38,935 nt of DNA from an uncultured Pseudomonadota bacterium (lineage in GTDB: Bacteria > Pseudomonadota > Alphaproteobacteria > RF32 > CAG-239). Of this stretch, positions 2,910-6,833 are shown piece by piece. Under the pieces are notes generated by a model. The model saw nothing but the letters and a program-made list of their open reading frames with translations. It did not search any database and had not been told where the DNA came from. Within the stretch, counting starts at the first letter, position 1. Every line of letters begins with the position of its first letter. A program made the position numbers and the translations under genes. Location: the NCBI GenBank assembly GCA_902793695.1, contig CADBEI010000006.1, positions 1-38,935 of the forward strand, written 5' to 3'.

Positions 2910-4088
2910 TTATGCAAACGGCTCCAACACACGCGGTAAAACACCTTTTAATGCCGAAATACAAACGCCGTAGTTGGTAATGGCAACTCCGGCCTGTTCG
3001 CATTTATAAATCCGCGAGAGAATTTCGCGCCTGTTTATGGTACAACCGCCGCATTGAATAACTAACTTGTACTCACTTAAATTCTGTGGAAAATCACAGC
3101 CGCTGACGTGGTATATGATGAGATTTTTGCCGGTTTTCTTTTTGAGCCAATTCGGAATTTTAACCCGTCCGATATCGTCTTCCATCGCATGATGTGTACA
3201 GGATTCGGCAATCAGAACTTTATCGCCATCCTGCAGTTTATCAATCATCGCCGCACCAAACGCCATTTTATGTAAATCGCCCTTAAAACGTGCCATCAAA
3301 ATCGAAAAAGTGGTACATTTAATATCCGGCGGCGTTAATTTTACCATTGTATCAACAATTTGTGAATCGCAAATTACCAACGCCGGAGGAGTTTTTAAGT
3401 TTTGCAAAATCGTGGCATAATCATCTTCTTTGACGGCAATAATGTTTTGATTATGGTCAAGACAATCGCGAATGGCTTGCACTTGTGGCATAATCAGTCG
3501 TCCTTTCGGCGCTTCGTAATCAAGCGGAATCAGCATAATAACGGTAGAATGCTCGGGAGCCAAGTCACCGACGAGCGGCTGTGCATTAAGATAATCTTCC
3601 GGACAAACTTTAATCAGCTCTGCCTTGAGCTTGTTAAGCACACGGTCGCGCGAAGATAAGTCGATGGAATTTACCTTAATGCCGTCGGTTGCAATAATCG
3701 AAAAACGGTCAGATTGATTGAAGATTTTTATCAGCGGAATTTTGCGTTCTGCGGCCATTTCAATAATCTGTTGTTCCGGAGCCTCGATTTTATCCCCTTG
3801 ACAGATGAGTAAAACAATATCGGCGCGGTCAAAAACGGCAACGGTTTTCTCCATACGTTTGTCGCCGAGTGCGCTGTTGTCGGCAAAACCGGCGGTATCC
3901 AACCACAAAACAGGTCCGAGCGGTTGCAACTCCTGCGCTTTTTCCACCACATCGGTGGTAGTACCGGCAATATCCGAAACAATGGCGGCTTGCTGACCGG
4001 TAATCAGATTCAGAAAACTCGACTTTCCGGCATTTACCCGTCCGACAAGCGCTATTTGTAAACGTAATGATTTCGGTGCGCCTTGCAT
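2910..4088 (-). CDS. hydF: [FeFe]-hydrogenase H-cluster maturation GTPase HydF
   Basis: A 392-aa scaffold protein on which HydE and HydG assemble the 2Fe subcluster that is then delivered to the [FeFe] hydrogenase HydA. The N-terminal GTPase shows the P-loop GRVNAGKSS (residues 16-24), the switch region SDIAGTTTD (38-46) and DTAGF (64-68). The C-terminal cluster-binding domain has the diagnostic ligands C297-T-H299 and C346-GG-C349, spaced as in HydF, which separates it from Era, Der and TrmE GTPases. The ATG at 4088 overlaps the tatD stop (TAATG), so it is the second gene of a tatD-hydF pair. HydE, HydG and the hydrogenase are not in this window. Confidence 0.93.
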   Translation of the reverse strand: MQGAPKSLRLQIALVGRVNAGKSSFLNLITGQQAAIVSDIAGTTTDVVEKAQELQPLGPVLWLDTAGFADNSALGDKRMEKTVAVFDRADIVLLICQGDKIEAPEQQIIEMAAERKIPLIKIFNQSDRFSIIATDGIKVNSIDLSSRDRVLNKLKAELIKVCPEDYLNAQPLVGDLAPEHSTVIMLIPLDYEAPKGRLIMPQVQAIRDCLDHNQNIIAVKEDDYATILQNLKTPPALVICDSQIVDTMVKLTPPDIKCTTFSILMARFKGDLHKMAFGAAMIDKLQDGDKVLIAESCTHHAMEDDIGRVKIPNWLKKKTGKNLIIYHVSGCDFPQNLSEYKLVIQCGGCTINRREILSRIYKCEQAGVAITNYGVCISALKGVLPRVLEPFA

Positions 4089-4828: not shown

Positions 4829-4861
4829 ATTTAACCTTTCATAATGGAGATAATAACAGCT

Positions 4862-5977
4862 ATGAAGTTTTTTACAAGAGGCGAATCGCAAATTTTTACA
4901 CAACCGCGGTTGAAAATTGATTTAAACAATTTGATTGATAATTATAAAACCTTGTGCAAAATCATCGCACCGGCCACCCCATCGGCGGTTGTAAAAGATG
5001 ATTCTTACGGCTTAGGTGCGTTTGAAGTGGCTAAAGCGCTGTATGAACGTGCGGATTGTCGCAACTTTTGGGTGGCGCATGCTCTGGAGGGGGCACGAAT
5101 TGCCGAAGCCGTGCCGGAAGCCAATATTTATGTATTGCAGGGAATCGGCGCGGACAGTTATGATTTGTTTGAAGAATATCATCTGATTCCGGTCATCGGT
5201 TCGCCGGCAATGTTCGCTTTTTGGAAACAAAAGCCGATTGACGGTATAAAGCCGGTAATTCAAGTGGAAACCGGATTGAATCGTTTGGGTTTCAGAGCGG
5301 ATGAACTGAAAAAACTCGGCAAAAAAGATTTGCAGACTTTCGGTATGGTGTTGAGCCATTTGGCTTGTGCCGATGAAAAAGACCATTTTATGAACGCACA
5401 TCAGTTAGAAAATTTCAAGGCGATTCGCGCTAAGTATTTTCCGGATTTACCGGCAACCTTATCGGCTTCCGACGGCGCATTTTTGGGTGAGGATTTTTGT
5501 TGTGATATGGTGCGTTTGGGTGCGGCGATGTATGGTATCAACACGGCACCGTATCGTCTTAATCAGATGAAAAACGTGATTATGGTGGAAGCACCGGTGT
5601 TGCAAATTGCCGATTTGCCGAAGGGCGAATTCGTGGGGTATTCGGCAACTTATCGGGCGGCGCAGAATCGAAAAATTGCAATTGTTTCAATCGGTTACGG
5701 CGATGGTATGCCACGCTCGCTTTCCAATGTCGGTAAGGTGTTTTTTAAAAAGAAAGGCAAAATGTGTGAGGCTCGAATTATCGGTCGTGTATCAATGGAT
5801 AATATTATTTGCGATGTAACCGATGTGCCGGATTTGGAAATGGGGGATTTCGGCGCGTTGATTTTTGATGAATACACGCTTGACGATATTGCGCGCGATG
5901 CCGGAACCATCAGCTACGAAATTGTTTCGCGCTTGGGTAAAAACACGCGTTTTGATAGGAAATATTTGTTAAAATAA
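4862..5977 (+). CDS. alr: Alanine racemase
   Basis: A 371-aa PLP-dependent racemase that makes D-alanine for peptidoglycan. The PLP lysine is K45 in AVVKDDSYGLG, and the C-terminal half carries GYSATYRA, SIGYGDGMPR with the catalytic tyrosine region, and GRVSMDNIICDVT, all typical of Alr. The start at 4862 is preferred because GGAG lies upstream; an in-frame ATG at 4844 has no ribosome binding site. The divergent neighbour tatD leaves almost no room for a promoter, so the promoters probably overlap the opposing coding regions. The family's usual KANAYGHG appears here as KDDSYGLG, keeping the Lys and Tyr. Length is normal. Confidence 0.93.
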   Translation: MKFFTRGESQIFTQPRLKIDLNNLIDNYKTLCKIIAPATPSAVVKDDSYGLGAFEVAKALYERADCRNFWVAHALEGARIAEAVPEANIYVLQGIGADSYDLFEEYHLIPVIGSPAMFAFWKQKPIDGIKPVIQVETGLNRLGFRADELKKLGKKDLQTFGMVLSHLACADEKDHFMNAHQLENFKAIRAKYFPDLPATLSASDGAFLGEDFCCDMVRLGAAMYGINTAPYRLNQMKNVIMVEAPVLQIADLPKGEFVGYSATYRAAQNRKIAIVSIGYGDGMPRSLSNVGKVFFKKKGKMCEARIIGRVSMDNIICDVTDVPDLEMGDFGALIFDEYTLDDIARDAGTISYEIVSRLGKNTRFDRKYLLK

Positions 5978-6061: not shown

Positions 6062-6090
6062 TTGACAAATAGAGAAAATAATGTTAAATA
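6062..6090 (+). promoter_or_regulatory. Sigma-70-type promoter in the gene-free stretch after alr
   Basis: TTGACA (6062-6067), a 17-nt spacer and TAAATA (6085-6090). No protein gene follows on this strand before the terminator at 6443-6481, so the site would drive a non-coding transcript of about 390 nt starting near 6097. A second TTGACA at 6125-6130 has no convincing -10. Confidence 0.45.
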
Positions 6091-6096
6091 GTTAGG

Positions 6097-6490
6097 TATA
6101 CCATAAATAATTAGGAAAGAGTGTTTGACAATTATTATTCCCAAGCGAGGGATTTTGAAAGGCTGCTGCAGTGATGCATCTTCCGGTGTTAATTAACGTA
6201 ATGTTGAATTAATATAAACAGTATGAATAAATCTCCCCCTTAAAAACTTAAACAGGATCTTTTTTAGGTATAGCTTTTGGTGCCTGTTCCCCGATTACGG
6301 AAGTAAAGCAATACCGATTTTCGTTAACTCTGACAGCACGGTGTGCCGCAAGATGAAACGACAATGACTAGCAACCAAACGGATAAAATCCGTAGACATA
6401 TTGATCATGCGGGTGGTTGCCCCCTTTAAAGATGATCAAAAACCGGCTTACGTTCTCGCACGCAGAACAGATGTAAGCCGGCTTTATTTT
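6097..6490 (+). ncRNA. Candidate structured RNA with an H-type pseudoknot and terminator (unclassified)
   Basis: The 520 nt between alr and the next gene hold no credible reading frame but a good deal of pairing. CGGATAAAATCCG (6380-6392) is a perfect hairpin. GCAACCA (6371-6377) pairs with TGGTTGC (6414-6420), and TTGATCAT (6401-6408) pairs with ATGATCAA (6432-6439). The two interleave, forming either an H-type pseudoknot or two exclusive folds. Upstream, AACAGG (about 6252-6257) can pair with CCTGTT (about 6284-6289). The region ends in a terminator stem. I looked for RNase P RNA, tmRNA, 6S and SRP RNA landmarks and did not find them. Both the boundaries and its status as an RNA gene are inference. 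Confidence 0.4.
6443..6490 (+). terminator. Strong bidirectional terminator hairpin
   Basis: CCGGCTTAC (6443-6451) pairs perfectly with GTAAGCCGG (6473-6481), with an inner GTTCT/AGAAC stem in the loop. On + it is followed by CTTTATTTTTTT; on - it is followed by TTTTTG. It can therefore end both the candidate RNA and the minus-strand gene that stops at 6498. Confidence 0.8.
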
Positions 6491-6497
6491 TTTAAAC

Positions 6498-6833
6498 TTA
6501 TTCAATAAAAGAAATATATTTGGCGTAGCGTTTACCGTAATTTTCGCGATATTGCAAAACACCCTCATTCATCACTTTATGTTCATATCTTTTCAAACAT
6601 TTGGCACTAGGAACTGCCGTCAATATACCGTTTTCGTAATGTGTATCGATTCCGATAAGCGCGGTTTGCAACGGCTCTTGCATCAAACGCTCATAATCTT
6701 CAGCGCTTATTTTGAATTTTGCTCCGTCAATATTTCCTTCCGCACTGATATATGCAGCCACACTCATCAGGCGGATATATTCAAAAATCAACAGCGGCGA
6801 AAATATTTCCAGTTCGGTTTTAGGCGATTCCAT
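6498..6833 (-). CDS. Hypothetical small protein
   Basis: A 111-aa soluble protein that I do not recognise. It starts at an ATG with AAGGAAG about 7 nt upstream and ends against a strong terminator, so it looks like a genuine single-gene unit. It has no signal peptide or membrane segment. The sequence is mixed in charge: an N-terminal helix-like stretch FSPLLIFEYIRLMSVAAYI, then DYERLMQEPLQTALIG, and a C-terminus rich in Tyr, Lys and Arg (RYEHKVMNEG, RENYGKRYAKY). It diverges from the SIMPL gene. No enzyme motif is visible. Confidence 0.65.
   Translation of the reverse strand: MESPKTELEIFSPLLIFEYIRLMSVAAYISAEGNIDGAKFKISAEDYERLMQEPLQTALIGIDTHYENGILTAVPSAKCLKRYEHKVMNEGVLQYRENYGKRYAKYISFIE

Follow-up and report, generated by a model that had tools for sequence, protein, structure and literature searches.

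The candidate RNA gene lies in the genome of a gut-type alphaproteobacterium, within a stretch of 38,935 nucleotides analysed here as a whole (the window), where it adjoins alr, the gene for alanine racemase (Table 1). An initial reading made from the letters of the window (the sequence-only reading) had described about 380 nt free of protein genes at this place, and indeed no ORF of at least 80 aa is found between alr and the convergent ORF on the minus strand. The promoter-like site proposed in that reading recurs in its relatives: TTGACA, the 17-nt spacing and a -10-like hexamer are present in all six copies of the element that we identified, including a relocated one in genome G009. The -10 hexamer is a poor one in this genome, and the relatives show TATACA, TATCAA or TATATA with the spacing unchanged. 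At the other end the terminator, a hairpin at 6443-6451/6473-6481 followed by a T-rich tract, is likewise kept in 6/6 copies. The homologues share the order promoter, AU-rich 5' end, variable 5' half, pseudoknots and terminator, and their predicted transcripts measure 286-403 nt in the other alr-linked copies and 702 nt in G009. A short 5' hairpin with a CCC/GGG or UCC/GGA stem is found in all five alr-linked copies, and an unrelated hairpin takes its place in G009.

Table 1. Features of the RNA gene and its immediate neighbours (positions in the window).
Feature	Position	Strand	Remarks
alr	4844-5977	+	upstream neighbour of the RNA gene
Promoter (predicted)	6062..6090	+	TTGACA 6062-6067, 17-nt spacer, -10 TAAATA 6085-6090
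Predicted transcript, ~392 nt	6098..6489	+	placed by promoter and terminator; start set by promoter spacing
5' hairpin UCCC-AAGCGA-GGGA	6139..6152	+	loop nAGCGA conserved
Micro-ORF MNKSPP*	6223..6243	+	overlaps C-rich, anti-Shine-Dalgarno-like stretch (UCUCCCCCUU)
Pseudoknot 1, helix C: AACAGG/CCUGUU	6251-6256 / 6283-6288	+	kept in 5/6 copies
Pseudoknot 1, helix D: GGUAUaGCUUU/AAAGCaAUACC	6267-6277 / 6305-6315	+	interleaved with C; 43/43 cells paired
Pseudoknot 2, helix A	6371-6376(7) / 6415(4)-6420	+	31/36 cells in register
Pseudoknot 2, helix B	6401-6408 / 6432-6439	+	48/48 cells paired
Stem E, inside helix B	6411-6413 / 6421-6423	+	double change in two of the sequences, A-U replacing G-C
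Intrinsic terminator CCGGCUUAC...GUAAGCCGG	6443..6493	+	inner hairpin GUUCU-CGCACGC-AGAAC, then U-rich tract
ORF	6498-6833	-	convergent neighbour 3' of the RNA gene; no Pfam match

The sequence-only reading had drawn attention to two interleaved helices, GCAACCA (6371-6377) with TGGTTGC (6414-6420) and TTGATCAT with ATGATCAA in the positions of helix B, and both are exact. The small hairpin that it added at 6380-6392, CGGATAAAATCCG, is equally exact in the sequence but is not conserved among the relatives. Taken by itself the sequence constitutes weak evidence, because a comparable interleaved pair of perfect helices (at least 7 and at least 8 bp) arises at least once in 18 of 300 shuffles of the transcript that preserve dinucleotides, and the folding energy computed without pseudoknots is ordinary relative to shuffles (z -0.37). 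As the helix pattern alone is thus only mildly surprising, the decision rested on the relatives.

Helix B and the terminator guided the fitting of a model-based alignment of the six sequences, and helix A was left out of it. Helix B shows double changes at 5/8 of its pairs, and all cells of the terminator stem are paired, with two double changes, double changes being seen in G009. Helix A (6371-6376/6415-6420) is paired in 86% of the cells, with double changes at two pairs; in G020 and G009 a register-shifted pairing occurs instead (GGAGC/GCUCC and ACAGC/GCUGU, respectively). When the 3' partners of helices A, B and the terminator are slid by 1-3 columns, pairing drops to 20-45%, against 97% in the original register, and the covariation score is at most 0.11 instead of 0.28. 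An RNAalifold consensus computed from this alignment without any prescribed structure also contains helix B, the terminator and stem E. The pairing of the upstream strand with the loop beats 1998 of 2000 shuffles when the six sequences are considered jointly, whereas single sequences with short helices do not achieve this. Since the loop of the hairpin formed by B and E pairs with the upstream strand, the 3' domain corresponds to an H-type pseudoknot. The sequence-only reading had left open a pseudoknot or a two-state switch; as A and B are kept together and share no bases, a pseudoknot appears the more likely of the two. Thus, its central proposal, a structured RNA not yet described and containing an H-type pseudoknot, is borne out, with A and B persisting through compensatory changes over six species and Rfam remaining blank.

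A second pseudoknot, missed in the sequence-only reading, occupies 6251-6315 and is supported in five copies. Its helix C is nearly invariant and therefore offers little covariation, and helix D retains pairing through double changes, namely UGCGU/ACGCA in G025, GCAU/AUGC in G011 and CC/GG in G009. The evidence for this pseudoknot is good but weaker than that for the 3' one, because the cell count for helix D comes from a hand-made alignment and the best helix between the helix D segments is mostly not significant against shuffles in single sequences. G020 appears to lack this domain, and a further match to it elsewhere in the genome of the window (G000:C24) resembles coding sequence and was rejected.

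The terminator carries a loop, GUUCUCGCNNGCAGAACA, which is nearly invariant, occurs once per genome and is confined to the genomes that carry the RNA. A simple terminator scan did not report the hairpin at 6443-6481, because it limits the loop to 8 nt and the actual loop holds a second small hairpin. Viewed on the minus strand, the same segment is a hairpin followed by TTTTT that would serve the convergent ORF, and on this reading of the letters the terminator could work in both directions. The combination expected of an independently transcribed structured non-coding RNA, i.e. its own promoter, a terminator and compensatory base changes, is present, transcription being predicted. We therefore consider it highly probable that a conserved structured RNA gene exists here.

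Searches of 56 related genomes at the DNA level recovered clear homologues in four congeneric species, all situated directly 3' of alr. Scanning with a covariance model built on the 3' domain revealed one more copy, the sixth, in G009 and away from alr; hence the RNA is present in 6/26 genomes of the genus, lying immediately after alr in five and at another site in G009. The rebuilt model, run over 152 genomes of the family and 153 of the order, returned the same six and no other convincing member; weak matches in other genera (18-26 bits) resemble coding sequence or ordinary terminators. When the terminator-loop pattern was searched across approximately 85,000 GTDB genomes, true homologues appeared only in alphaproteobacterial assemblies, the labels of which indicate a rumen or reticulum origin, three by naming it and two as RUG isolates. 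The remaining GTDB pattern matches and one in IMG/VR resemble GC-rich coding sequence, and no homologue of the RNA was found in phages, plasmids or IMG/VR. Presence of the RNA is scattered over the alr tree, with five changes and clustering no stronger than that of shuffled labels; in G003, whose alr is 92% identical, an ihfA-like gene directly follows alr. The divergence of the RNA broadly tracks that of alr, and the closest pair over the whole RNA is also the closest alr pair. We prefer to explain this by vertical inheritance in which the RNA was lost repeatedly at a single site, although it may instead have been transferred together with alr.

In the window and G001 the gene 3' of the RNA runs convergent to it, and different genes stand there in G025, G011 and G009. 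In G009 a complete unit is flanked by genes which, from a reading of the sequence, encode an SDR-family oxidoreductase and a pilin-like protein. The differing 3' genes and this complete unit with other flanks indicate that the RNA unit is independent of alr and its neighbors. The 5' half of the G009 copy (L040 1500-2250, minus strand) contains near-identical tandem repeats of about 100 nt each, which account for the length of about 702 nt; within each repeat lies a short ORF, for instance MNRTRASP* or MIRDRASP*.

The window shows no match to Rfam 15 at the gathering threshold, its best permissive matches having E>1, and the RNA in the five homologous loci likewise matches nothing in Rfam at E<=0.1. 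A sub-threshold match to CsrC in locus L009 (2674-2734, minus strand; 25 bits against a gathering score of 61) lies on the other strand about 900 nt from the RNA and was set aside as probably due to chance. The sequence-only reading had found no landmarks of RNase P RNA, tmRNA, SRP RNA or 6S RNA. Consistent with this, ARAGORN reports neither tmRNA nor tRNA in the window, and three of these identities can be rejected because the genome encodes each RNA elsewhere: an alpha tmRNA (RF01849, RF00023) at G000:C7:60905-61241 with 217.5 bits, RNase P RNA (RF00010) at G000:C22 with 269 bits and 6S RNA (RF00013) at G000:C23 with 60.6 bits. SRP RNA was covered only through the Rfam scan of the window. 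The two-piece tmRNA of alphaproteobacteria also combines pseudoknots with a short reading frame but, unlike it, the RNA described here has no tRNA-like domain. The ornate ROOL and GOLLD RNAs are likewise non-coding and contain pseudoknots, and the ROOL env-120 example comes from the rumen, as do most carriers of the present RNA. However, those RNAs span from about 660 to over 800 nt and reside on phages or prophages, often near tRNA islands, whereas the present RNA is smaller and chromosomal, with no tRNA in the window and no Rfam match. Bacterial small RNAs seldom combine a double pseudoknot with a promoter of their own.

Just 5' of the first pseudoknot lies a C-rich stretch that occupies a constant place in the five alr-linked copies. 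The window has UCUCCCCC there, G025 has AUCACCUCC, and G011 and G020 both read CCUCCUCC; we take the stretch to resemble the tail of 16S rRNA. The trans-acting alpha-r14 (NfeR1) anti-Shine-Dalgarno sRNAs share with the present RNA, for which trans action is proposed, an intergenic location in Alphaproteobacteria and a C-rich stretch of this kind. They are 123 nt long with three hairpins bearing identical CCUCCUCCC loops (PMC10746234, PMC3927594), and their seed resembles our C-rich stretch (PMC10746234). The several identical CCUCCUCCC hairpin loops that define alpha-r14 are absent here, CCUCCUCC occurring once in G011 and G020 and the window having CUCCCCC. Unlike alpha-r14, moreover, the RNA is about 390 nt long, with two pseudoknots, a single imperfect C-rich stretch and no Rfam match.

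Comparison of the relatives establishes the homology, the conserved promoter and terminator and the covariation of the fold; transcription, trans action, a C-rich seed and a partner are what we infer beyond this. The reading that we favor, with a probability of roughly 0.45, is that of a self-contained structured RNA of about 390 nt acting in trans, most likely as a regulator. A sigma-70-type promoter would drive its synthesis and the intrinsic terminator would end the transcript, yielding an RNA with a variable 5' half, two successive H-type pseudoknots and a terminator hairpin with a fixed loop. The C-rich stretch before pseudoknot 1, our principal clue to the mode of action, might then pair with the Shine-Dalgarno regions of target mRNAs, and the pseudoknots and terminator loop would stabilize the RNA or bind a partner protein. 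The genome encodes Hfq. Several features speak against this reading: the C-rich segment is not strictly CCUCC (this motif is absent from it in the window and G001), its predicted accessibility is only average except in the window copy, and just six of the 26 genomes have the RNA.

The most conserved letters are those of the pseudoknot loops (GACA and CCC-UUUA) and the terminator loop, and not an exposed seed, which would argue for a role in binding a protein or ligand. A second possibility, less probable than the regulatory reading, is that the fold itself is what acts: the RNA would serve an RNA-binding protein or the ribosome as scaffold or decoy, make contact through these conserved loops and involve no antisense pairing. 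A 5' half that varies in length, reaching 702 nt with repeats in G009, fits such a role; however, neither a partner nor a co-occurring gene nor a repeated binding motif came to light.

The letters of the C-rich segment may instead be coding, since in 5/5 alr-linked copies they form a proline-containing micro-ORF. In the relatives it reads MNKGPP*, MNKSPPKQLF*, MERPPPKSF* and MERPPPKKIS* at the same place (L002, L003, L009 and L005), so that it comprises 6-10 codons with two or three prolines, whose codons differ mainly at third positions. We regard as rather speculative the notion that these RNAs form a novel bacterial class with direct action on the ribosome or on translation, a conserved Pro-Pro micro-ORF or anti-Shine-Dalgarno segment being linked to the two pseudoknots. 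The unit would then be optional and often lost, retained at a single site on the chromosome within one genus of gut Alphaproteobacteria. Slightly less probable still is a leader or small-protein mRNA, in which ribosomes would translate the micro-ORF and the downstream pseudoknots would sense stalling at Pro-Pro or Pro-stop. The constant place and third-position differences of the ORF, and comparable short ORFs within the G009 repeats, are consistent with this; yet no clear Shine-Dalgarno sequence precedes the micro-ORFs, they are too short for a coding test, and attenuation would need a consistently linked downstream gene, of which there is none.

A derivation from a known RNA (tmRNA, RNase P RNA, 6S, SRP or a phage ornate RNA) or from a mobile element, as a divergent copy or a relic, is very improbable: pseudoknots do occur in tmRNA, RNase P RNA, ROOL and GOLLD, and the five changes over the alr tree would suit mobility, but Rfam is blank, tmRNA, RNase P RNA and 6S lie elsewhere, and phage, plasmid and IMG/VR matches are wanting in an RNA that diverges broadly with alr. 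Least probable of all is a riboswitch or other cis-acting leader ending transcription before a downstream gene, for although promoter, pseudoknot and terminator follow the layout of a transcription-terminating riboswitch, synteny offers no consistent same-strand downstream gene, the 3' gene being convergent or different as described above.

The double-pseudoknot RNA, for which Rfam holds no counterpart, thus most probably represents a real new RNA. With a 3' pseudoknot that covaries clearly and a terminator loop that is nearly invariant, the family is a defined target for expression studies, probing and partner searches in a group of uncultured gut Alphaproteobacteria hardly studied for RNA, and its on-off distribution among close species permits comparison of carriers with non-carriers.

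With regard to the wider locus, hydF-tatD-alr is constant upstream among the compared loci, and the site after alr is variable, being occupied by an ihfA-like gene, the RNA or unrelated genes. The HydF protein of the window (2910-4088, minus strand), an [FeFe]-hydrogenase maturation GTPase with dimer and tetramer domains, is itself encoded here in an alphaproteobacterium.
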